Source: Megalodesulfovibrio gigas DSM 1382 = ATCC 19364 (GTDB lineage Bacteria; Desulfobacterota; Desulfovibrionia; Desulfovibrionales; Desulfovibrionaceae). Taken from it: a DNA stretch of 50,610 nt. The notes under the pieces were generated by a model. That model was not told where the DNA came from and did no database searches. It was given only the letters and a program-made list of their open reading frames with translations. A program made the position numbers and the translations under genes. The stretch lies in NCBI RefSeq assembly GCF_000468495.1, contig NC_022444.1, positions 2,085,737 to 2,136,346 of the forward strand, given 5' to 3'. Positions 31,472 through 47,027 of the stretch are shown in pieces (the first letter of the stretch is position 1; every line of letters starts with the position of its first letter).

Positions 31472-32194
31472 TCACAGCATTTGCAGGTCACGACCAAGCC
31501 ACTTCACATGGCCGATCACTTCAAAATCTACAGACTCATCGTGTGGATTTATTTCTATATCCCTATATAATTGCTTGTCATGGTTGTCGCTCCTCAAAAT
31601 AATAAGCCCCTTTTCACGGAAAAGGCGCTTTACCATAAGTTGCCCATCATGTCGCACAGCGTAAATATCCCCGCTTGTTGTGAACAGCCTTTCATCTTGG
31701 CGAGTCGAGACCAACAACATGTCGCCATTCGTTATTGTCGGTTCCATTGAATGCCCACGGGCATCCATCAACACGATAGAATCCAGATTCCCCTTTTTTA
31801 CCAACCAGTCTTTCCTGAATGCGTACAAATCTTCATATGAAGAGTCAAACTCAAGGCCACCATCTCCCCCGACAGGACGAGCAAAAACTTTTGGGACAAA
31901 CTCAAAATTTTCTTTAATTTCTTTGCCTTCGCTTAGTATCTCTACGGTGTCTATCCCTAATTTGTTCATATAGCGAAACAAGTCGATTGCTGCTGTTTTT
32001 TGCCCGCCACGCTCACCGTCGATCCACCGCTTGATCGTTGCTGGATTCACCCCCCCGAGCCTTTTCCCAATTGACGCAAGGGTCTCGCCGTCATCTCTGA
32101 GCTTTTTGAGCGCATCGATAACAGCAGACCATGCCAACAAAAAAACCTTGTCCGCGTTCATAGTTGCCGCTGTTAGCAGTTTAGCATTTGTCAT
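31472..32194 (-). CDS. CI-like repressor (HTH plus S24 peptidase-type domain)
   Basis: The 240-residue protein has an N-terminal helix-turn-helix (ETLASIGKRLGGVNPATIKR, residues 38-56) and a LexA/S24 C-terminal domain with catalytic S149 (GHSMEP) and K189 (LMVKRL). Such repressors keep the element silent and are inactivated on DNA damage by self-cleavage; whether this one has a cleavable linker is unclear. It diverges from the Cro-like gene across an operator at 32223. The start at 32194 is a choice; ATG 32161 would still keep the HTH. Confidence 0.88.
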   Translation of the reverse strand: MTNAKLLTAATMNADKVFLLAWSAVIDALKKLRDDGETLASIGKRLGGVNPATIKRWIDGERGGQKTAAIDLFRYMNKLGIDTVEILSEGKEIKENFEFVPKVFARPVGGDGGLEFDSSYEDLYAFRKDWLVKKGNLDSIVLMDARGHSMEPTITNGDMLLVSTRQDERLFTTSGDIYAVRHDGQLMVKRLFREKGLIILRSDNHDKQLYRDIEINPHDESVDFEVIGHVKWLGRDLQML

Positions 32195-32210
32195 GCGACC
32201 ATAATTCCTG

Positions 32211-32239
32211 TTGACTTTTGTTTTGTCTCGCGACAAAAT
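32211..32239 (+). promoter_or_regulatory. Promoter of the Cro-like gene
   Basis: TTGACT is followed after 17 bases by CAAAAT. Transcription would start at or next to the ATG at 32246, so the mRNA may be leaderless. The operator at 32223-32236 fills the spacer, where bound repressor would block RNA polymerase. Confidence 0.5.
32223..32236. promoter_or_regulatory. CI/Cro-type operator, copy 3
   Basis: TTGTC-TCGC-GACAA is embedded in a longer palindrome, TTTTGTCTCGCGACAAAA (32221-32238). It lies between the divergent repressor and Cro-like genes and repeats the half sites found at 28984 and 29016. Confidence 0.8.
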
Positions 32240-32245
32240 CAAGCT

Positions 32246-36700: not shown

Positions 36701-37018
36701 ATGGGCACCATTCACGAACTCGCCTCCATCACATCCAAGGGACAGATCACCCTGCCGAAGTCTATCCGGCAGCTGCTTGGGGTGGGTGCTGGCGACAAGG
36801 TCGCCTTCGAACTGGACGGCTCGCGAGTGGTTGTCAGCCGCGCCGGGGAGCAGCCGCATACGGACCCGGCCATCGTGGGTTTTCTCACGCTGCTGGAGCA
36901 GGACATCCGCAGTGGCCGGCATCTCGGCACACTGCCCGAGGGGTTGGCGCAATCGATGCTTGCGGCTGCAGACGCATCTCCCATGGAGGATGAGATCGAA
37001 GGCGACGTGGCACTGTGA
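36701..37018 (+). CDS. prlF: PrlF-like AbrB/SpoVT-fold antitoxin
   Basis: The 105-residue protein starts with a swapped-hairpin AbrB domain (SITSKGQITLPKSIRQLLGV, then DKVAFELDGSRVVVSRAG) and has a C-terminal tail for toxin binding. In E. coli PrlF neutralises YhaV and represses the operon. AAGGAG lies 8 bases before the ATG. The toxin gene follows with overlapping stop and start. Confidence 0.9.
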   Translation: MGTIHELASITSKGQITLPKSIRQLLGVGAGDKVAFELDGSRVVVSRAGEQPHTDPAIVGFLTLLEQDIRSGRHLGTLPEGLAQSMLAAADASPMEDEIEGDVAL

Positions 37019-37476
37019 TGCAGCGGCACGGCTGGACCCTGCTTTTCCATGACTGCCTGATCGAACAACTGCAGCGACTTGAGCAGGCGGCAGCGCGTGC
37101 CATGGCCCGGAACCCCGAAGAGGCCGCCTCCAACGCCAACGTCAAGCTGTTCCGCGCCCTGTCCCGCCTCATCCTGGAGACCATCCCCGACGATCCCAAT
37201 CGCGAGGAGTACCGGCAAGGCAACACCATGGGGCCTACATTCCGGCACTGGCGGCGTGCCAAGATCGGCAGGCGTTTCCGGCTATTTTTCCGGTTTGACT
37301 CCAACGCCAAGGTCATCGTGTTCGCGTGGGTGAACGACGAGCAGACCCTGCGCTCGGCCGGCAGTAGGTCAGACCCGTATGCTGTTTTCCAAAAGATGTT
37401 GCACTGTGGGCATCCTCCTGACGACTGGGCGGCATTGGTCAAGGCCAGCAAGGAAGACTGGCCCCCAACGGAGTAG
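37018..37476 (+). CDS. yhaV: YhaV-type ribosome-dependent mRNA interferase toxin
   Basis: The 152-residue protein matches the YhaV pattern throughout: WTLLFHDCLIEQL, the NVKLFRALSRLILETIPDDP region and the catalytic strand FRHWRRAKIGRRFRLFFRFD followed by VFAWVNDE. YhaV has a RelE-like fold and cuts mRNA. The length is normal and all core blocks are present, so it should be active. The ATG overlaps the TGA of prlF (TGATG); a GTG three bases earlier is an alternative start. Confidence 0.92.
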   Translation: MQRHGWTLLFHDCLIEQLQRLEQAAARAMARNPEEAASNANVKLFRALSRLILETIPDDPNREEYRQGNTMGPTFRHWRRAKIGRRFRLFFRFDSNAKVIVFAWVNDEQTLRSAGSRSDPYAVFQKMLHCGHPPDDWAALVKASKEDWPPTE

Positions 37477-37906
37477 CACGCGGCCAACGAATTCCGGTTC
37501 CATGGCAACGCATGTATCAAAGGACTAGGCTGGAATCCCAAACAAACCTATTGAAGCGCACCGGATGTGCTGGCCAGTTTTCAGGCTCAGGGTGGGGATG
37601 CGGACGCCCATAAACAAAACACCCTCAGGTCCTATATGGAGAAGCGCTGTGGTGGGGTGAAGGGGAAACGCGCGGAATGCAAATACCGGCAAATATCGCC
37701 TGCCTCTGGACGTGCCTAATCGTGTTTCGTATGCTCATCGCCAGCACAAGTGTCGGCGGGCATGGCGACGTCCTCTTTCCTTCAGGCCCTCCCCGAAGGG
37801 TAAGAACATCGGCAAGGCTAGGAAGGGAGTTATCCCGAGCGGCATCAGCCGTACTGTACCAATGGGCCAACGAACCCAGGAAGATTCGGCGTGATTACGG
37901 GTTGAT
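37477..37906. other. 430-base stretch without a recognised gene
   Basis: Several short open frames occur but none resembles a protein I know and all lack a clear ribosome binding site. The stretch looks like decayed mobile DNA between the toxin pair and the methyltransferase operon. Confidence 0.5.
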
Positions 37907-37934
37907 TTGACAGGCATCCTGTTGCTATTATGTT
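37907..37934 (+). promoter_or_regulatory. Promoter of the methyltransferase-GHKL-receiver operon
   Basis: A perfect TTGACA is followed after 16 bases by TATGTT, 22 bases before the methyltransferase ATG. No other promoter-like site lies inside the three overlapping genes, so they are probably one transcript. Confidence 0.6.
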
Positions 37935-37955
37935 CAAAAATACGGTTAGGTTTGT

Positions 37956-39044
37956 ATGGCAACTTCTCATTCAGCAAATAATCTAGATCCTATGACGCTT
38001 CGGGCTGTTGATTTCTTCTGCGGAGGGGGAGGGATGACATGCGGTTTACGCATGGCTGGAATCAATGTTCTTGGAGGGTTGGATATTGCGGCCGATTGCA
38101 GGGAAACATACGAGTTCAACAACCGTCCCTCGCGCTTCGTAGAGCAGGACGTTGCCGGACTTGACGCGGAGGCCTTGGGCAGCATTTTCGACATCCGCCG
38201 AGACGCCCCCAACTTGATTTTCGTGGGCTGCAGCCCGTGTCAGTATTGGAGCAAGATTCGCACGGACCGCGGCAAAAGTGAGAAGAGTGCCTTTTTGCTC
38301 AAGGAATTTCAACGGTTCATAGACTCCTTTTTGCCGGGATTCGTCGTGCTGGAAAATGTTCCCGGCCTGCGAAGCAATCCGCAAAGCTACCTCCCCCACT
38401 TCCGAGACTTCCTGAAAAACTCCGGCTATTCCTTTGCCGACGATGTCATCGATACGAGCCGGTACGGCGTGCCCCAGCATCGTCATCGGTATCTTCTCGT
38501 AGCCTCGCGTACATGTGCAACCGTAACCTTGCCAATAGGTGATACACCTACAGTCAGCGTGAGGCAGGTAATAGGCGAGAAAAACGGCTTCCCGCGCATT
38601 GCAGCTGGCCATGCAGACAATACAAACTTCATGCATACCTCAGCTGAACTCTCAGCTTTAAATCTGCGTCGCATCCAGACGACGCCGCACGACGGCGGGG
38701 ACAGGCTTAGTTGGAAGGACGACCCGGAGCTGCAAATCGACGCCTACAAGGGCAGGGATGACATCTTTAAGGACGTTTATGGTCGCATTCGATGGGATAC
38801 GCCGGCACCGACCATTACCACCCGGTTTAACAGCCTGTCCAACGGCCGTTTCGGCCATCCAGAGGAAGATCGGGCCCTATCTCTTCGGGAAGGAGCTTGT
38901 CTGCAAACATTTCCGAAAAGCTATCGCTTCTTCGGGCCGAGCCGCAACTCCGTAGCCCGGCAAATCGGCAACGCCGTCCCCCCGTTACTGGCCAGACACA
39001 TCGGAAAACATCTTATAAGGTTGAGTCGTCATGGCGACATTTAA
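37956..39044 (+). CDS. DNA cytosine-C5 methyltransferase
   Basis: The 362-residue protein has motif I (VDFFCGGGGMTCGLRMAGI), the catalytic loop motif IV with C95 (GCSPCQYWSK), motif VI ENV (133-135), motif VIII (QHRHRYLLVAS) and motif X (RQIGNAVPPLLARHI). It should methylate cytosine in double-stranded DNA; the target site is unknown. It overlaps the GHKL ATPase gene by 14 bases, so it belongs to that three-gene operon. No classical endonuclease is in the operon, so any restriction would have to come from the other two proteins or from elsewhere. Confidence 0.95.
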   Translation: MATSHSANNLDPMTLRAVDFFCGGGGMTCGLRMAGINVLGGLDIAADCRETYEFNNRPSRFVEQDVAGLDAEALGSIFDIRRDAPNLIFVGCSPCQYWSKIRTDRGKSEKSAFLLKEFQRFIDSFLPGFVVLENVPGLRSNPQSYLPHFRDFLKNSGYSFADDVIDTSRYGVPQHRHRYLLVASRTCATVTLPIGDTPTVSVRQVIGEKNGFPRIAAGHADNTNFMHTSAELSALNLRRIQTTPHDGGDRLSWKDDPELQIDAYKGRDDIFKDVYGRIRWDTPAPTITTRFNSLSNGRFGHPEEDRALSLREGACLQTFPKSYRFFGPSRNSVARQIGNAVPPLLARHIGKHLIRLSRHGDI

Positions 39045-41970
39045 GGCCCGCGCTCGGGCCTTGGACATGTTAGGACGCCAACAGATCGCGGGCATCCCCA
39101 CGGCTATTAGTGAGCTCTTCAAAAATGCGCACGACGCATACGCAGATCGGGTGGAGGCGGACTACTATCGAACCGATGGACTGTTCGTCCTGAGGGACAA
39201 CGGTCTGGGCATGACCGAGGAGGAGTTCGTCCAGCGCTGGCTGACGCTGGGCACGGAGAGCAAGATCACCTCCAAGAACATGGCAAAACCGCCCGTGGAC
39301 CCGTCCAAGCCATACCGGCGATTGCTTGGTGAAAAGGGCGTGGGGCGTTTGGCCATCGCCATCATTGGTCCCCAGGTGCTGGTGCTGACCCGCGCCAAAC
39401 GGGATGGAATGCTACAGGACACTGTGGCTGCCTTCATCCATTGGGGGTTGTTTGAATGCGCGGGGGTGGATCTGGACCAGATCGAAATTCCCGTCCGTAC
39501 TTTTTCGGGGGGCGTCCTGCCGAACGCCGCCGACCTTCAGTCCATGGTACGCCTCTTCGAGGACAACCTCGCACGGCTACGAAACGTCATGGACGACAAG
39601 GTGCATGACCGAATTCTGTCCGATCTCCGGCAGTTCGACCTGGACCCCTCAGAAGTGGACACTTACCTGCCGGACATGAGCCTTACCGGCAACGGACACG
39701 GCACGCATTTTTTCATCAAACCAGCTTCGGACATGCTGGCTGCAGATATCGAGGATGACGGGGGCGACCGCCCGTCGAACCTCGTAAAGCTGCTTGGTGG
39801 CTTTTCCAACACCATGACGCCGGGGCACACGCCGCCGGTCATCAAACCTGCCTTTCGCGACCACAAGACCGACGATCTGTCCGACGACCTCATTGAGGAA
39901 GGCAAGTTCTTTACGCCCGAAGAATTCCGCAACGCCGACCACCAAATCGCGGGTCGGTTCGACGAATACGGCCAATTTCGGGGCTCTGTTTCCGTCTATG
40001 GTCAACCATTCCATGACCATATCGTATCCTGGCAGGGCGGTCACGGATTCCCGACGCGATGCGGCCCCTTCCGTATTCAGGTGGCCGTTGTACAGGGGGA
40101 GTCGCGGGCTTCGACATTGCAATTAGAAGACTGGAACGCCATGTGCTCCAAGATGGATCGTTTCGGCGGCCTGTACATCTATCGTGACGGCATCCGCGTT
40201 CTCCCCTATGGCAACAACGATTTTGACTTTCTGGACATCGAGAAAAACAGAACCAAGAAAGCCAGCTACTATTACTTCTCCTTTCGGCGCATGTTCGGTG
40301 TGGTGGAGATCGACAGCACGGCCAACGGAGGATTGACAGAAAAGGCCGGCCGTGAAGGGTTTCGCGAGAATGCAGCCTATCGGGAGTTTAAATCCATCCT
40401 CAAGAATTTTTTTGTCCAACTGGCAGCCGATTTTTTCCGGGAAGAATCGCCGGAGACCAGATACTACGACACCAAGATGGAGTACGACAGACAGGACAAA
40501 TTACGAAAGAATAGGGAAAAGCAGGTCGGCGCTAAAAGACGCAAACTGACAGAAGAGTTGGCTACGTTTTTCGACCGATACGATGCAGCCGAACCACGCA
40601 ACAGAGTCGACGCGGTACTTGACCAGCTCAGGCGCGAACTGGACTATGCGGCCTCATTGGACGATCCAGCTGAAGCGGCGAGGGTGTTCCTCGATCTGGA
40701 GGAACAGGCCAAAAAGGGCATTGCGGAGTTGGATGCCCGCTACAAAGTGGCCCGGCCGCGCGGCGTCGGACTGCCGAAAAACCTGACCAGAGATTGGGAG
40801 AATTACGTCAACGCCGTCGGGGAACTGCAAGAAACCCTTTTGATACCAGCCCGGAAGCGAATTGACGAACTCGTCGGCGAACATGCTGCCCGAGCCAGAC
40901 TCATGCTGGATCGCCGCTTGCAACTCGAACGATCGCTGAAGTTGTTGTCCAACGAGACCCAATCCAAGACCGCTCGCGAGCGCAAGGCCACCCACGAAAG
41001 CCTGGACACGGTGTCCAAGGGCGTGGTCGAGGCCGCACGGTCCAGCACCAAGCGCGTCAAGCGGACCCTGGATGAAGTGTTCGCCGAATTCGCCGCCTTG
41101 GATATGACTGACTTGCCTGCGTCCGAAGCCATGGCTACTCGCGACCGTCTTGAAACGGCGCTGCAGACTACACGTGATAGCGAACTTAATTTCCTGCAGA
41201 CTATCCGTGAGCAGTTGGAGGCCATCGACCTCAGTGGTGAGGGTGGTTCACTGGACCAAATGGAGGCCGTGGAGCAACGGGCCATCGCCTTGGAGGAGCA
41301 GGCGGATGTCGATCTGCAACTTACACAGTTGGGCATGGCCATCGAGGTCATCAACCATGAGTTTGACGCGAACATCCGGGCAATCCGAGCCAATGTCCGC
41401 CGCCTCAAGTCCTGGGCGGATGTGAATCCAGACCTTCAGGACTTGTATGCCGGGATCAGGAACAGCTTTGAACATCTGGACGGATACCTTACCCTTTTCA
41501 CGCCGTTGCATCGCCGGCTCTACCGAAAGGAAATTGTTATCCGGGGTCGCGACATCGCAAAATTCATAGCAGACCTGTTCTCCGCGCGGTTCGAAAGGCA
41601 CAAGGTCACGCTGGAATCCACGGATGCATTCCTAAATTTGGAAATCAAGGGATATCCTTCGACGTTCTACCCTGTGTTCGTCAATCTTGCGGATAACGCC
41701 ATCTATTGGCTCAAGGATCGTCCAATGCGCCACATCACGCTGGACGTGCGTGAAGGTCGCATCTTGGTCGCCGATACCGGCCCCGGTATTCCTGAACGGG
41801 ACCGAACCTCGGTGTTTGAACTCGGATTCTCCCGAAAGCCCGGAGGACGGGGGATGGGCTTGTACATTTCTCGTGAGGCTCTGTCTCGAGCGGATTACGA
41901 TCTGGCTATCGCCAACACAAATGCCGGCACCACGTTCACCATCGCACCAAAAGAGGAACAGCAATCATGA
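39031..41970 (+). CDS. Protein with two GHKL ATPase domains (MORC/Hsp90-like plus histidine-kinase-like)
   Basis: The 979-residue protein has an N-terminal GHKL domain with N box ELFKNAHDA (N32), DNGLGM (D56-M61) and the lid GEKGVGRLA (100-108), like MutL/Hsp90/MORC proteins. A long middle region follows, mostly helical and coiled coil (about 480-760). The C-terminus is a second, histidine-kinase-like ATPase: an H-box-like INHEF (H776), N box NLADNAIYW (N889), VADTGPGIP (D915) and GRGMGLYIS. GHKL ATPases of this kind are known partners in restriction-modification loci. It overlaps both neighbours and is followed by a receiver protein, so phosphotransfer from H776 is plausible but not shown. 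Confidence 0.85.
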   Translation: MATFKARARALDMLGRQQIAGIPTAISELFKNAHDAYADRVEADYYRTDGLFVLRDNGLGMTEEEFVQRWLTLGTESKITSKNMAKPPVDPSKPYRRLLGEKGVGRLAIAIIGPQVLVLTRAKRDGMLQDTVAAFIHWGLFECAGVDLDQIEIPVRTFSGGVLPNAADLQSMVRLFEDNLARLRNVMDDKVHDRILSDLRQFDLDPSEVDTYLPDMSLTGNGHGTHFFIKPASDMLAADIEDDGGDRPSNLVKLLGGFSNTMTPGHTPPVIKPAFRDHKTDDLSDDLIEEGKFFTPEEFRNADHQIAGRFDEYGQFRGSVSVYGQPFHDHIVSWQGGHGFPTRCGPFRIQVAVVQGESRASTLQLEDWNAMCSKMDRFGGLYIYRDGIRVLPYGNNDFDFLDIEKNRTKKASYYYFSFRRMFGVVEIDSTANGGLTEKAGREGFRENAAYREFKSILKNFFVQLAADFFREESPETRYYDTKMEYDRQDKLRKNREKQVGAKRRKLTEELATFFDRYDAAEPRNRVDAVLDQLRRELDYAASLDDPAEAARVFLDLEEQAKKGIAELDARYKVARPRGVGLPKNLTRDWENYVNAVGELQETLLIPARKRIDELVGEHAARARLMLDRRLQLERSLKLLSNETQSKTARERKATHESLDTVSKGVVEAARSSTKRVKRTLDEVFAEFAALDMTDLPASEAMATRDRLETALQTTRDSELNFLQTIREQLEAIDLSGEGGSLDQMEAVEQRAIALEEQADVDLQLTQLGMAIEVINHEFDANIRAIRANVRRLKSWADVNPDLQDLYAGIRNSFEHLDGYLTLFTPLHRRLYRKEIVIRGRDIAKFIADLFSARFERHKVTLESTDAFLNLEIKGYPSTFYPVFVNLADNAIYWLKDRPMRHITLDVREGRILVADTGPGIPERDRTSVFELGFSRKPGGRGMGLYISREALSRADYDLAIANTNAGTTFTIAPKEEQQS

Positions 41971-43535
41971 CCGATTTTGCCGCATTGTCGAAAGACGTTT
42001 TGGCCGGCTTCCTCCAGACTGTCGTAGTTATCGATGACCAGGCGTATGATGTTCAAAACGAAAAAACTGCCATTCCTCTCAAATCACCTTCACGTGGCCA
42101 GGCGAAGGCGGACGATTCCTCCGAAGACGCGGCCAGGACCCAAGTCGCGCATTCGCTTGATACATCTCAGCTTGTGAGCGCGTTTGCATGTAAGGGGCTG
42201 GTTTGCGCCGTCATCGCGCCGCAAAAGGACGAGCCTGTCGAGCAGCGCTTGGGTAGTGTGGTGGATCGCTGTGACATCGTCATCATTGATTGGCAAATGT
42301 TCAACGACGATGGCAAGCAGACCCTTTCGCTTATCAAGCATCTCTGCGAGGGAGACTGCGGGAATCGGCTGCGCCTGCTATGCGTCTACAGTGGCGAGCC
42401 CGATCTCGAGAAAATATCGGACCAAATTACTGGAAAAAAATTTGGATTTACTTGCCACGACAACAATAAACTCCTTTTACGAAAGGATCATGTTATCGTG
42501 ACGATTCTGGGGAAATCTGTCGTACCCGTCGAACGCCTTGCAGACGAGCTATTTAATTGTTTTTCGATTTTTACAAGGGGATTGCTCTCGAACGCGGTGT
42601 TGGCGGCTTTGACTGGTATCCGACGCAACACACACCGCATCATCCAGAAATTTGATTCATCACTGGACCAAGCTTATATTTCGCACCGTATTTTATCAGT
42701 TCCTGTTGATAATTCTGAGAGTGAAATATTATCAGTTATATGTTCTGAGCTGGAATCTGCAATCCATCAATCACCAAAAATTCCTTACATCAATAGCGGC
42801 GCTATACAGGCGTGGATGAAGTCAGATGCAAGAAAAAATTTCAATTATGATGAGTTAAACGTCAACCCAAATTTCGCTCCTCAAGCCCTGGAGAAACTGA
42901 TAGAGTTTGGCATAAACCATAGCGACCATTCTCACGATAATGTATATCAAAGTATTTGTTCCAAAGTACGTAGCAAAAAATTTGTAAAAGAATCTAAGAT
43001 GACATTAATCCTGGGCGGAAAAAAACCTAAGGATGAAGATCGGCGATTCGCCATCCTATCTACACTTGAGACACGCTATGAGGATTACGTGCCGAAACTT
43101 ACTTTGGGTTCGATCGTACATGATGGGGAACGCTACCTCCTGTGCATCCTACCACGATGCGACAGTGCCAGAGTCCCAACGAAAGGACGTAATTTCTTAT
43201 TTATCCAGCTTGTCGATAAATCTCCACCACAAATTGATATCATTGTAAAAGACAACAATAACTTAGTTGATCTCGGCATAAGCATGCACCCGTATGACAC
43301 CATTATTATCAGGTTTGCTGCATCAACTGCCGGTCAGCCGGTTAAGGCTGTCGAAAAAGACGGAAGCTGGGTGTTCAAAATTAAGAGCGAGGACGACAAT
43401 GTTGAAACCGTGCGTTGGGTGGCAGACGTTAAGCCCCAGGTCGCCCAGGCTTTCGCCAATGAATACGCGTCCAAGGTCAGTCGTGTCGGTGTAAACAAAT
43501 CCCAATGGCTTCATCAATTGGCCAATAAAGAATGA
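41967..43535 (+). CDS. Receiver-domain protein with unknown C-terminal effector region
   Basis: The 522-residue protein begins with a divergent receiver domain: acidic pair D23-D24 (VVVIDDQAYD) and a candidate phosphoacceptor D108 (IVIIDWQMFNDDG), with a long insert between them (about 30-85). The remaining about 340 residues match no domain I know; they contain YVPKLTLGSIVHDGERYLLC and RCDSARVPTKGRNFLFIQLV, which look like a beta-rich fold. It overlaps the GHKL gene by 4 bases (ATGA). The context suggests it is the output of the GHKL protein. Its 3' part is more AT-rich than the rest of the operon. Confidence 0.75.
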   Translation: MTDFAALSKDVLAGFLQTVVVIDDQAYDVQNEKTAIPLKSPSRGQAKADDSSEDAARTQVAHSLDTSQLVSAFACKGLVCAVIAPQKDEPVEQRLGSVVDRCDIVIIDWQMFNDDGKQTLSLIKHLCEGDCGNRLRLLCVYSGEPDLEKISDQITGKKFGFTCHDNNKLLLRKDHVIVTILGKSVVPVERLADELFNCFSIFTRGLLSNAVLAALTGIRRNTHRIIQKFDSSLDQAYISHRILSVPVDNSESEILSVICSELESAIHQSPKIPYINSGAIQAWMKSDARKNFNYDELNVNPNFAPQALEKLIEFGINHSDHSHDNVYQSICSKVRSKKFVKESKMTLILGGKKPKDEDRRFAILSTLETRYEDYVPKLTLGSIVHDGERYLLCILPRCDSARVPTKGRNFLFIQLVDKSPPQIDIIVKDNNNLVDLGISMHPYDTIIIRFAASTAGQPVKAVEKDGSWVFKIKSEDDNVETVRWVADVKPQVAQAFANEYASKVSRVGVNKSQWLHQLANKE

Positions 43536-43601
43536 CCCCACTTCCATGCCAATTTGAACTTGAGACTACGGGTTCCAGAAGGAAACGAGGGGGCCCGCTG
43601 G

Positions 43602-43938
43602 TGGCCAAACGATACGGCGTCAGTGAGTCCGCCGCGCTGCTGCGTTGGGCGGCAATGAAATCCCTCGGCTCGGCATTGATTGTTCCTGGCAAGCCATGGC
43701 ATAATGGCACCGTCGATAGTTGGACTGGCAAGAATCACGAAAATTGCCTATCTATTGAGTGGTTTCACAGCGGGGCAGAGGCGATGACAATCATTGAGGG
43801 ATGGCGGCGGCACTACAACACCGTGCGCCCGCACTCCAGCCTGTGCAACTTGACCCCGACGGCCTACAAAGAGACCGCGACGGGCCAAAACCGGAGCGCG
43901 ACTCTCAAGTAATCAGTGGTCCGAAGAAGGCCGGCAGG
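43602..43938 (+). mobile_element. IS3-type relic, transposase C-terminus and element end
   Basis: The plus strand encodes PGKPWHNGTVDSWTGKNHEN, then WFHSGAEAMTIIEGWRRHYN and VRPHSSL, ending at TAA 43910-43912. This is the last part of the IS3-family rve domain. The catalytic glutamate position is aspartate (VDSW for VESF), and the frame lacks the rest of the domain, so it is dead. The end of the element is nearly identical, in inverted orientation, to 34413-34550. The first 70 bases of the open frame (from 43532) are not transposase. Confidence 0.85.
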
Positions 43939-44437
43939 TCGCCTCCCGCTCCAACACAGCCGCAATCCGGGCGGCGACCGCTTCGGCATCCTGCCGCAGC
44001 TCGTGCTCCCAGACGCGGATGACCTGCCAGCCCGCTACGGCGAGCTGCGCATTGATCAGAGCGTCACGGTCGACATTGCGCTGGATTTTGGCCTCCCAGA
44101 ACGGCTGGTTCGTTTTGGGCGGCCTGTAGTGTTCCGGGCAACGGTGCCAGAAGCAGCCATCCACAAAAACAACCACCCGGCGCGAGGGGAAGACGATGTC
44201 CGGCCTCCCCGGCAGACCGTGCCCGATGCGGTAGCGGTAGCCCATGCGCCAGAGGCGTTGCCGGAGCATGCGCTCCGGCCTGGTGTTTTTCCCTTTGATG
44301 GCGGCCATGCAGCGCCGGCGCTGTTCCCGGGTCAGGACATCCGTCCGGGCGCGGCCCTGGCCTTGGCTCTCCTGATCGTGGCGATGGTCGCCATGATCAG
44401 GACCGTTCGCGGTGTCATGGCCGTTACCGCCCTGCAT
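43913..44437 (-). CDS. vsr: Very short patch repair endonuclease (Vsr)
   Basis: Vsr nicks DNA at T:G mismatches made by deamination of 5-methylcytosine. The 174-residue protein has the family blocks MAAIKGKNTRPERMLRQRLW, GRPDIVFPSRRVVVFVDGCF with the catalytic aspartate, and WHRCPEHYRPPKTNQPFWEA. It lies 3 bases after the DUF3883 gene, in the same direction as the second methyltransferase, which it probably serves. The last nine residues (ATCRPSSDH) and the stop are read from IS3-type sequence, so the original C-terminus was replaced, though the catalytic core is intact. Confidence 0.93.
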   Translation of the reverse strand: MQGGNGHDTANGPDHGDHRHDQESQGQGRARTDVLTREQRRRCMAAIKGKNTRPERMLRQRLWRMGYRYRIGHGLPGRPDIVFPSRRVVVFVDGCFWHRCPEHYRPPKTNQPFWEAKIQRNVDRDALINAQLAVAGWQVIRVWEHELRQDAEAVAARIAAVLEREATCRPSSDH

Positions 44438-44440
44438 CCA

Positions 44441-45559
44441 TTAGTCCTCTTCGTCCTCTGGCAGGCGGATTTCAATCTCAGGGCCGAACAGAAGCACCGC
44501 CGGAGAGATGGAAACCCCGTCCGGGGTGACACCTTCCGGAAGTTCGGAAAACGTGTGGAGCAGGGAATCTGCGAACCCGGCCATGTCCTCCGCAATCCTG
44601 AGCCTGGCCGTCCCCGCTTCCAGGGCATAGACCCGGTAGAGATCGTACCGCCGGCCTGCATCGGCCATTTCCTGAAGCTCAGCCATGGAGATGTGCAGCG
44701 TCCGCTCAAAGGGGCCGGCAGTTGATTTGACGTCCAGCCTGATCGTGTTCCCGGCCGCGTCCTCCACAGAGAAATCGTAGGGGGCGACGGCATTCAAGTC
44801 CGACACCCAGCGGTGACTCCGGATCACGCCCTGGCGGGCCTGTAAGGCAAGCCAGCCGTCGATCAGGGCCTCGCCCTCCCGCCCGACGGCCTCCGCCCTG
44901 AGCCGGGCACGCTGCAGGGCCTCCTGGTCCATCGTGGTCCCGGAGCGGCGGCGGAACAGTCGTTCCACCCCTGCCACGCCCCCCAGGGCGGCATCCTCAA
45001 TGGCTTCACCCAGGGTGAACTCAAGCGCCGGGTGGGAATCCGGAAGCGCTGCGGCGTCAATGAGGCTGCCCAGTTCGGAAGAGTCCAGGGGAATCATTTT
45101 CCGGGAACCCAGGCGCTCCGCAAGGATTCCATGAAGCGTGGCGTCTTCCGGCACAGCTGCGGCGACAAACAGCAGGCGCGCGGCAGTGGGGAAGACATTG
45201 CCGGAGAAATCGAAAACAACAAAGTCGCCGGGCTGCAGGGGGTCAAACCGTGCCCCGGCGGCAGCTTTTGGGACGAGCTCGCCGTTGAGCCGCCAGTTCT
45301 TGTAGGTGCTGCGTTTGACAATCTTGCGCTGGAGGCGCAGGGCAGTATGGATCCCCGGCCCCAGCAGTACCAGGTCCATGCCCAGGTATCCAGACCGCCC
45401 CTCCGGCGTATCCGGCAGCGCGGGGAACAGCGCTCCGACAAACACATCCTGGTTCAGATTGATGGACTTCTGATGCCCGGCCTGGAGGACCTCATGCTGG
45501 TGCTGGAAAAAGGTGAGGTCCGAGCGGGTCAGCTGTTTCAAGGCGATTTTACCGGCCAC
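44441..45559 (-). CDS. DUF3883-type protein, candidate restriction nuclease
   Basis: The 372-residue protein has an N-terminal domain of about 180 residues (KSINLNQDVFVGALFPALPD, GDFVVFDFSGNVFPTAARLL) and a C-terminal DUF3883 region. The latter has the PD-(D/E)xK-like pattern: E in REGEALIDGWL, D in APYDFSV, and D276-V-K278-ST. This fold is typical of restriction endonucleases. It lies between a cytosine methyltransferase and vsr on the minus strand and overlaps the methyltransferase gene by 11 bases. It is probably the nuclease of that restriction-modification system; no cleavage site can be given. Confidence 0.8.
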   Translation of the reverse strand: MAGKIALKQLTRSDLTFFQHQHEVLQAGHQKSINLNQDVFVGALFPALPDTPEGRSGYLGMDLVLLGPGIHTALRLQRKIVKRSTYKNWRLNGELVPKAAAGARFDPLQPGDFVVFDFSGNVFPTAARLLFVAAAVPEDATLHGILAERLGSRKMIPLDSSELGSLIDAAALPDSHPALEFTLGEAIEDAALGGVAGVERLFRRRSGTTMDQEALQRARLRAEAVGREGEALIDGWLALQARQGVIRSHRWVSDLNAVAPYDFSVEDAAGNTIRLDVKSTAGPFERTLHISMAELQEMADAGRRYDLYRVYALEAGTARLRIAEDMAGFADSLLHTFSELPEGVTPDGVSISPAVLLFGPEIEIRLPEDEED

Positions 45560-47027
45560 CGTGTCCTCGCAGGGTTGAAAGCATGACGTCCGCCAGCGCC
45601 CTGGCCATGAGCGGGGGCACGGCGTTGCCGATCTGCCGGAACCCGGGATTCATGGGGCCGACGAATCTGAATCCATCCGGGAAGGACTGCAGCCGGGCCG
45701 CCTCGCGCACGGAGATGGTCCGGGCCTGGCTGCTGTCATAGTGGATGTGGGAATAGCTGTCCTTGCCCAGGTGCGCCATCAGGGTCCTGGCGGGCTGGTC
45801 AGCCTCCATCTTCCGCCACTTGTTCGGGAATTTACCCGGATCATACGGGGGGACCGTCGCATCCCGGAGACTTGTGTACTCATGGCTCCCCTCGGCCGGG
45901 GCCTGCCCCTTCGCCTGCAGTGCCGCAAGCTTTTCATCGAAGAGGGCAAGGGCGTGCCGGTAGGCCTGCGGATACTGGTCCCCGGCCTGCATCCGGGCAA
46001 AGATGGCGTAGTCCCGGGGGAGGTACCGGATCACGTGGTCATAGACGCCGAGGCTGTTTTCAAACCCGGGCCAGGTGCGCATGCGCCTGCCATACTCTGT
46101 GACCGGCCGGGTTTCGTCGTACGGGCACAGCCTGTCGAACCGCCGCGGCCCTTTTTTGAGCCTGCCCTCCAGGTGATCCCTGATGGGGGGAAGGTCCTGG
46201 AGCGCCTCCCAGGCCGTAATGGCCGGCGGCAGTTCCGGACCGCCCTGCGGGGTGGCGACAAGCCGTGAATGTTGCCCATCGGGGCCGCAACAACCAGCCT
46301 CGGGCTGGTACTTGAGCGCCACCTGCCGCGAGCCCTCATAGCCCTTTGGGAGCACATGCCGGTGGGTTGGCGCGGGAAAGACCACCTCTGCGGACACCCC
46401 CGCCGCATACCCGATCAGGAACGCCCGCTCGCGCATCTCCGGCACGCCGTAATGGACCGCGTTGAGCAGGGTGTACCTGCAGGTATAGCCAAGGTCCTCC
46501 AGGACCTCGCCCATCTCCTCGTAGATGTTGTGTCCGCCGTGGTTGAGGATGTCGGGCACGTTCTCCACCAGCAGCGCGACAGGTTTCAGCTGCCGGATAT
46601 ACTCCAGATAGCGCAGGTACAGGTCGCTGCGTGGATCCCTGATGAAAGCATGGGGGTGCTCGGCCACCTCACGCAGCTTGGCGCGGCCCACCCGGGCAAA
46701 CGCCTGGCAGGGAGGGCCGCCCACAATAACATCGATGGCGGCTTCCGGCTCGGCAAAGCCCAGTTCCTGCAGGAACGGATATGGCTCGGTCAGGACGATG
46801 TCACGGCTGCGGGCGTGGCGGTTTCGTCCGGCCTCATCATGATGCGGGAAGAAGTTCAGGGCATGGGAGGCCGCGGCCACAGGGTCCATCTCGATGGCGG
46901 CGCAGAGCGCGTACCCGGCGGCATGGAACCCCAGGGAGATGCCGCCGCAGCCGGCAAAGAGGTCCAGCACCCGCGGAGCCCCGCCGTTATTCAGCCTGTC
47001 GATCTTTTTCTGGACGTCAAAGGGCAT
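45549..47027 (-). CDS. dcm: DNA cytosine-C5 methyltransferase (Dcm-like)
   Basis: The 492-residue protein has motif I (VLDLFAGCGGISLGFHAAGY), motif IV with catalytic C107 (GGPPCQAF), motif VI (ENVPDI), motif VIII (EMRERAFLIGY) and motif X (RQIGNAVPPLMARALADVML). It is longer than the methyltransferase at 37956 and only distantly related, so the two probably have different target sites. GGAG lies 9 bases before the ATG. It starts a minus-strand operon with the DUF3883 nuclease candidate and vsr, a classic methyltransferase-endonuclease-Vsr set. Confidence 0.95.
   Translation of the reverse strand: MPFDVQKKIDRLNNGGAPRVLDLFAGCGGISLGFHAAGYALCAAIEMDPVAAASHALNFFPHHDEAGRNRHARSRDIVLTEPYPFLQELGFAEPEAAIDVIVGGPPCQAFARVGRAKLREVAEHPHAFIRDPRSDLYLRYLEYIRQLKPVALLVENVPDILNHGGHNIYEEMGEVLEDLGYTCRYTLLNAVHYGVPEMRERAFLIGYAAGVSAEVVFPAPTHRHVLPKGYEGSRQVALKYQPEAGCCGPDGQHSRLVATPQGGPELPPAITAWEALQDLPPIRDHLEGRLKKGPRRFDRLCPYDETRPVTEYGRRMRTWPGFENSLGVYDHVIRYLPRDYAIFARMQAGDQYPQAYRHALALFDEKLAALQAKGQAPAEGSHEYTSLRDATVPPYDPGKFPNKWRKMEADQPARTLMAHLGKDSYSHIHYDSSQARTISVREAARLQSFPDGFRFVGPMNPGFRQIGNAVPPLMARALADVMLSTLRGHGGR

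Follow-up and report, generated by a model that had tools for sequence, protein, structure and literature searches.

Two-component signalling and restriction-modification (R-M) are usually regarded as separate, and a three-gene operon of Megalodesulfovibrio gigas DSM 1382 that holds parts of both raises the question of what such a combination would do. In the window, meaning here the whole stretch of 50,610 nucleotides analysed, the gene of a C5 cytosine DNA methyltransferase is followed by that of a GHKL ATPase/histidine-kinase-like protein and by that of a receiver protein. Since signalling and R-M parts are joined in one operon in at least eight phyla, it becomes testable whether a phosphorelay controls a restriction-type defence. 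The explanation that we consider best, with a probability of about 0.4, is an R-M-like defence cassette of the HEF_HK/Response_reg_2 kind in which the C terminus of the receiver protein serves as the effector. An anti-phage role of the operon, as raised in a preliminary description of this DNA, is plausible.

The three genes are tightly packed on the plus strand, with the methylase at 37956-39044 (362 aa), the kinase-like protein at 39031-41970 (979 aa) and the receiver protein at 41967-43535 (522 aa), the first two overlapping by 14 bases and the last two by 4 bases. The coordinates, lengths and overlaps of the preliminary description were exact, and its proposal of a single operon is borne out by the gene order and these overlaps. 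The promoter that it placed ahead of the genes is there as a site, TTGACA-16-TATGTT (37907..37934, plus strand), scoring 10/12. Such sites number six in 37400-44000 compared to 4.1 ± 1.8 in shuffles, so that by itself this one is no better than chance, and what speaks for it is its position, 21 bases 5' of the methylase start codon. The genome has a single match to the receiver protein, namely, the copy in the window.

The first protein matches PF00145 (E value of 4e-48) and TIGR00675 (over the cut-off), and by PF00145 and its catalytic motifs it is predicted to be the DNA methyltransferase of a type II R-M system. C95, previously pointed out in the methylase, is indeed the PCQ cysteine, and both PCQ and ENV are kept in all 30 aligned methylases (an alignment without the partial sequence of L023, the distant methylase of L042 and the second copies in L026 and L032, and a count that omits the second methylase of the window). 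Across most cassettes, the mean identity of the target region (0.53) is above that of the core (0.45), which suggests that one target motif may be widespread across phyla. This conservation is unlike ordinary R-M diversification and counts against a defence reading. Between the window methylase and that of L041 (2798-3850; an Acidobacteria bin), the identity is 59%, compared to 43-48% for the kinase pieces and 25% for the receivers, and the two methylases share a target-region type unlike that of the majority, suggesting that methylases may be exchanged between cassettes. In a set of 12 partial Mantel tests, the helical part of the receiver protein tracked the methylase target region when the kinase core was controlled for (r = 0.37, P = 0.001). 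Controlling for the methylase core removed the association, which is therefore not used here as evidence.

The middle protein carries HATPase_c_3, HEF_HK and HATPase_c, all over curated cut-offs, and these are the only Pfam domains found in the 26 aligned kinases, a set without L021, L024, L026, L027, L029, L032, L038, L041 and L042, whose kinase genes are interrupted or cut. The dual GHKL domains noticed earlier are hence both recognized by Pfam. The N-terminal GHKL domain (HATPase_c_3 at residues 24 to 124) and a second domain together span residues ~1 to 460 (39031..40410), and this end of the AlphaFold model resembles SMCHD1 in Foldseek (best E value of 6.9e-9), followed by Hsp90 and MORC3 (1.1e-7). 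With its ATP motif residues, the HATPase_c_3 match and this structural likeness, it has the GHKL plus S5-like arrangement that characterizes MORC and paraMORC proteins. A long helical, probably coiled-coil region (residues 477 to 740; 40459..41250) leads to the HEF_HK domain of the DHp type (residues 766 to 832; 41326..41526; PF19191 E value of 5.5e-30) with the predicted phospho-acceptor H776, and then to the kinase ATP-binding domain (residues 878 to 976; 41662..41958; PF02518 E value of 8.8e-18). HK853-type kinases appear in the Foldseek list for this other end of the model, the core being HK853-like. The mean pairwise identity is 0.54 in the GHKL domain, 0.56 in the second domain of the ATPase module, 0.63 in DHp and 0.51 in the kinase ATPase, and falls to 0.30 in the coiled coil, the lowest of the five stretches compared. 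H776, an H-box-like site in the preliminary description, is a genuine DHp histidine, invariant together with E777 in 26 of 26 kinases. The examined GHKL motif residues, N885 and N889, and the four G-box glycines are equally unchanged in all 26, and D915 of the G1 box is replaced by N in four. The model has a pLDDT of 81 and a pTM of only 0.56, making the relative placement of its domains uncertain. As SMCHD1 and MORC proteins act on chromatin in animals and plants, a bacterial system of this kind could reveal what SMCHD1/MORC-like ATPases read on DNA.

The receiver protein (Response_reg_2 by Pfam, model and alignment) begins with a receiver domain at residues 15 to 186 (42009..42524; PF19192 E value of 4.6e-45, over the cut-off) that contains D23, D24, D108, S142 and K183. 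The receiver-like start proposed at the outset is confirmed by this match and by the receiver fold of the AlphaFold model (pLDDT of 83 and pTM of 0.77 with 32 sequences), for which VIA gave a Z score of 11.7 and a root mean square deviation of 2.8 over 121 residues. The three aspartates singled out earlier do not vary in any of the 32 aligned receivers, nor does K183, and residue 142 is T in 29 and S in 3. The mean pairwise identity is 0.33 in the receiver domain and 0.22 to 0.45 in the C-terminal parts. Three sequences with a frame that ends prematurely or at a contig boundary (L037, L038 and L044) were dropped from this alignment, the frame of L044 being one that stops early, and the relatives L003 to L010 were excluded from the methylase, kinase and receiver alignments alike.

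The preliminary description held the combination of these parts to be unusual and would have yielded to a match with a described system. Such a match exists: a sequence-based description of the gene set was published in 2021 by Bellieny-Rabelo et al. (PMC8011034), who, in the part of their article available to us, defined the HEF_HK and Response_reg_2 domains, found them linked in 91.6% of 644 regions, and proposed a two-component(-like) system tied to R-M. There, the HATPase_c_3, HEF_HK and HATPase_c architecture (group 1) accounts for 174 of 222 sequences, a paraMORC ATPase ancestry is proposed, and Response_reg_2 is detected in proteins having no other known domain. The same available text reports C5 methylases as frequent upstream of the pair, Vsr genes in 20 genera, mostly directly 3' of the receiver gene, and type II nuclease domains near some members (HNH_2 in seven genera, MvaI_BcnI, EcoRII-C, ResIII and HSDR). 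Our locus has the active-site histidine domain, the group 1 architecture and a receiver gene within three genes, and it shares with that system the two signalling proteins, the domain order, the upstream methylase and the often downstream Vsr. As far as the available text of PMC8011034 goes, R-M genes are treated there as neighbours, with a Pectobacterium relative as the starting point, whereas the loci here form a tight three-gene unit including the methylase; HNH_2 and other nuclease domains are reported nearby, whereas our loci have no recurrent separate restriction gene; and the invariant C-terminal signature of the receiver described below is not mentioned. What we add is thus the tight triplet, the near-invariant phosphorelay and ATPase residues, this signature, and one locus with Vsr inside. 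Among the matches listed in a search of open-licence full texts by titles and abstract beginnings, no experimental study of the gene set was found.

MORC and paraMORC proteins in R-M-like loci with methylases and Vsr were described by Iyer et al. in 2008 (PMC2292703), and these loci share with ours the GHKL ATPase plus a further ATPase-module domain, the methylases and Vsr. The paraMORC families in the available portion of that article have RecB-like nuclease, TIR or HxH C termini and helicase partners, and, unlike the cassette here, none of them is described there as a histidine kinase paired with a receiver. A single phage-protective protein likewise carries a paraMORC-type GHKL ATPase, which its authors take to control a nuclease domain; as far as its accessible description goes, it differs by a PD-(D/E)xK nuclease and by having no methylase, kinase or receiver.

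A neighbourhood survey for a conserved triplet, suggested at the outset, revealed co-occurrence across phyla. Scanning contigs of one genome per species with a three-sequence receiver alignment as the query gave 34 loci in Bacteroidota, Pseudomonadota, Chlorobiota, Chloroflexota, Actinomycetota, Acidobacteriota, Gemmatimonadota, Verrucomicrobiota and others, i.e., at least eight phyla as labelled in the database. The scan was seeded by the receiver protein alone and hence imposed no selection on the neighbouring genes. All 34 loci have a kinase gene, or a fragment of it, 5' of the receiver gene and in the same orientation, and 30 of the 34 also have a codirectional methylase upstream; the methylase is missing at contig ends (L027 and L038) and in two actinobacterial loci (L042 and L043) that have the kinase and receiver without an adjacent methylase. 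With start codons chosen by us, the kinase and receiver genes are separated by -26 to +16 in all 21 loci measured and the methylase and kinase genes by -14 to +81 in 27 of 28; in L032, which has an incomplete kinase gene, the methylase is ~3 kb away. Genome surveys, whose counts include the centre genome, found Response_reg_2 in 7 of 348 genomes (6 over the cut-off) and in 5 of 369 (4 over), and a search with the window receiver protein hit 3 of 395 genomes, centre genome included; the distribution of the cassette is sparse. Twelve survey hits lay beyond the centre genomes, and 11 were extended, a weak below-cut-off gamma hit (G1079) being left out. All three genes are present in 10 of these 11 further loci, L097 stopping at a contig end, and in L098 the methylase comes last in the gene order. 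Pairwise distances between the proteins of 22 cassettes, including that of the window, are correlated (r = 0.93 for kinase-receiver, 0.80 for kinase-methylase and 0.83 for receiver-methylase; P = 0.0002 each, 5,000 permutations each), and this covariation may be partly due to common descent.

In seven of the 34 loci, the kinase gene is broken or incomplete with no contig end to account for it, and every upstream methylase is in a single frame. L024, L041 and L042 have an in-frame stop in the kinase gene, which is split, shifted or incomplete in L021, L026, L029 and L032; the methylase is in one frame in six of these seven loci, the six that have one. These interruptions could be assembly errors or signs that the costly half of the cassette is decaying. 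Only two plasmid records match the receiver, one with broken genes. On a Pseudomonas syringae plasmid (L081, 8807-13232), the genes of both signalling proteins are fragmented, and an IS5 transposase gene lies among the fragments. No receiver relative was found in phage records, and none of the 36 IMG/VR stretches that fit two short patterns encoded one.

We propose the following model, in which the operon structure, the domain content, the catalytic residues, the co-occurrence and the place of Vsr as the sole nuclease gene found to recur nearby in the loci surveyed are read from sequence, and we infer the thing sensed, the direction of phosphotransfer, the chemistry of the effector and the anti-phage role. 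On the host chromosome, the methyltransferase would mark a single sequence motif. Invading DNA, most simply DNA that lacks this methyl mark, would be detected by the middle protein, which presumably dimerizes and combines a MORC/SMCHD1/Hsp90-like ATPase clamp at one end with a histidine kinase core at the opposite end. The signal would then travel through the long coiled coil, resulting in autophosphorylation at H776 and in transfer of the phosphate to D108 of the receiver protein, whose C-terminal region would be released or activated to act on the foreign DNA or on the infected cell. Spelled out in full, as an R-M attack gated by a His-to-Asp phosphorelay, in which a SMCHD1/MORC-like clamp reads the cytosine mark of the cassette itself and phosphorylates a regulator whose new C-x-x-P-x-C-D-x-x-R effector destroys DNA or the cell, the proposal is tentative. 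Detocs, a two-component-like phosphorelay for phage defence, resembles the proposed cassette in this respect and differs by another kinase, a separate effector and, as far as is known, no methylase. Besides the conserved target region, the few plasmid copies, the lack of any in the phage and IMG/VR sets searched, the two loci without an adjacent methylase and the D915N replacement in 4 of 26 kinases count against the defence reading. Moreover, the 2021 study (PMC8011034) began from Pectobacterium genes up-regulated on stressed potato tubers, an origin that fits other roles too.

Classical regulation, in which a soluble two-component system would control the transcription of methylase or R-M genes by sensing nucleotides or the state of DNA, is the alternative that survives best, and we regard it as doubtful. 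It accords with the conserved residue sets of kinase and receiver and comes close to the view held in the available text of PMC8011034, where HATPase_c_3 is suggested to sense NTPs, the signalling to control R-M systems, and nuclease genes lie near other members. What it lacks is a convincing match of the receiver C terminus to a DNA-binding family and a restriction gene recurring beside the cassette in the 34 loci. Among open reading frames of at least 110 aa within 6 kb (blastp, E value of 1e-6), no neighbour family besides Vsr occurs in more than 3 of the 34 loci, and neither a fourth operon gene nor a recurrent nuclease gene emerged, keeping in mind that this crude gene calling may drop overlapping genes and that some loci are shortened by contig ends. 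If the cassette indeed has no separate restriction enzyme, attack would come from a signalling protein, from Vsr, or would be absent. Judging from the nuclease neighbours in the accessible part of PMC8011034, the partner may be a separate restriction enzyme in other branches of the family.

By elimination, the receiver C terminus is the best candidate for the attack in the proposed defence cassette; the effector role is assigned to it in this way because no nuclease motif or known fold was found there. This region (residues 187 to 522; 42525..43532), predicted to be the effector, was called unrecognised from the start, rightly so, as searches of Pfam, PHROGs, NCBIfam and PDB sequences with its 336 residues yielded nothing trustworthy. 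Foldseek of the whole receiver model against the PDB and viral structures returned nothing at an E value of 0.001 or better, and the VIA list, which re-examines only the top chains of Foldseek, was filled by receiver domains covering residues 10 to 214 at most. In the model, a helical part (188 to 366) precedes a beta-rich part (382 to 488) that carries the C-x-x-P-x-C-D-x-x-R signature, with C393, P396, C398, D399 and R402 invariant in 32 of 32 sequences, as are G381, W484 and R506 elsewhere in the C terminus. In 345 genomes of the window's class, a profile of the C terminus found only six proteins, which are the six over-cut-off Response_reg_2 sites. The region is a candidate new effector family. 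In PADLOC-DB 2023, the window receiver protein had no match, 1 of the 32 family members had a weak one (E value of 0.004), and the signalling proteins were not matched as one known anti-phage system.

Several resemblances of the C terminus were discarded. RAG1-like zinc motif matches (hmmsearch E values of 0.87 to 0.89), Flu_M1 matches in 5 of 32 C termini (best E value of 0.0029), and a single NifT match (NCBIfam E value of 0.0015) with other lone weak matches were taken as chance. HEPN RNases have an R-x4-6-H motif, and neither the R219-x3-H223 spacing nor the variation at residue 223 (H in 26 of the 32 sequences, Y in 4, S in 1 and R in 1) fits it. A MazF/PemK-like fold, an idea by eye for the beta-rich end, obtained a probability of 0.3% in hhalign, a profile comparison only, against 21 PemK-like proteins.

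This last comparison bears on abortive infection or addiction, in which the receiver C terminus would be a general toxin restrained by the phosphatase activity of the kinase and by methylation. We judge it unlikely: the seven broken kinase genes beside methylases in one frame would fit a costly effector side, and a toxin-antitoxin pair does lie in the neighbourhood (PrlF antitoxin and YhaV toxin genes with a four-base overlap, 36701-37476, plus strand, upstream of the operon), but the interruptions come largely from draft or metagenome assemblies, the kinase gene offers a larger target by being longer, and the MazF-like profile did not match.

Quite unlikely in our opinion is a middle protein that would itself be the restriction enzyme, similar to BbrUII/HgiDII, with kinase and receiver switching it on and off. 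The NCBIfam model of that family (NF050001) does match residues 9 to 123 (E value of 7.7e-15, 54.4 bits), and PADLOC-DB 2023 gave two REase_II matches for this protein besides a weak Cas8g one. However, the similarity is limited to the N-terminal GHKL domain, ending at residue 123 and staying far under the family cut-off of 550 bits, and we know of no kinase in the BbrUII/HgiDII family. The secondary structure of the AlphaFold model consists of the ATPase module, the coiled coil and the kinase, with no nuclease or other extra domain apparent, a view of the model that is no proof, and Pfam found none beyond the three domains in any of the 26 members.

Turning to Vsr, its gene adjoins the triplet or is one open reading frame off in 12 of 34 loci (codirectional in 5), occurs anywhere in the fetched stretch in 13, lies beside the triplet in 5 of the 11 further loci (codirectional in 5), and in L099 sits between methylase and kinase. 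That Vsr would supply the nuclease or nickase activity of the cassette, with the GHKL module recruiting it in the way that MutL cooperates with Vsr and MutH, is improbable: these adjacencies and the MutL-Vsr parallel drawn in the available text of Iyer et al. (PMC2292703) favour it, but most loci have no Vsr in the fetched stretch, that of the window is on the opposite strand beside a second methylase, and repair of deaminated methylcytosine suffices to account for the gene.

In the window, the preliminary description of an operon with no standard endonuclease is true for the operon itself, and the Vsr-type mismatch endonuclease gene (43913..44437, minus strand; TIGR00632, 148 bits) is convergent to it, beyond an IS3-type transposase remnant (rve_3; 43532-43912, plus strand) whose frame begins within the final four bases of the receiver gene. 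The window receiver ends at about the same place as those of its relatives. Vsr is accompanied on the minus strand by genes for a NOV_C-domain protein (44441-45559) and a second C5 methylase (45549-47027) and seems to belong to this operon; 43913-47027 is probably a separate R-M system. A convergent Vsr gene and second methylase likewise accompany the cassette in L026 and L032. The G+C content, ~0.65 over much of the window, is 0.44 to 0.57 across 34 to 44 kb, and the surroundings of the operon look like a defence-rich island. Farther upstream, a low-G+C stretch with an S24-peptidase, repressor-like gene (31472-32242, minus strand) is perhaps the remnant of a prophage or other element.
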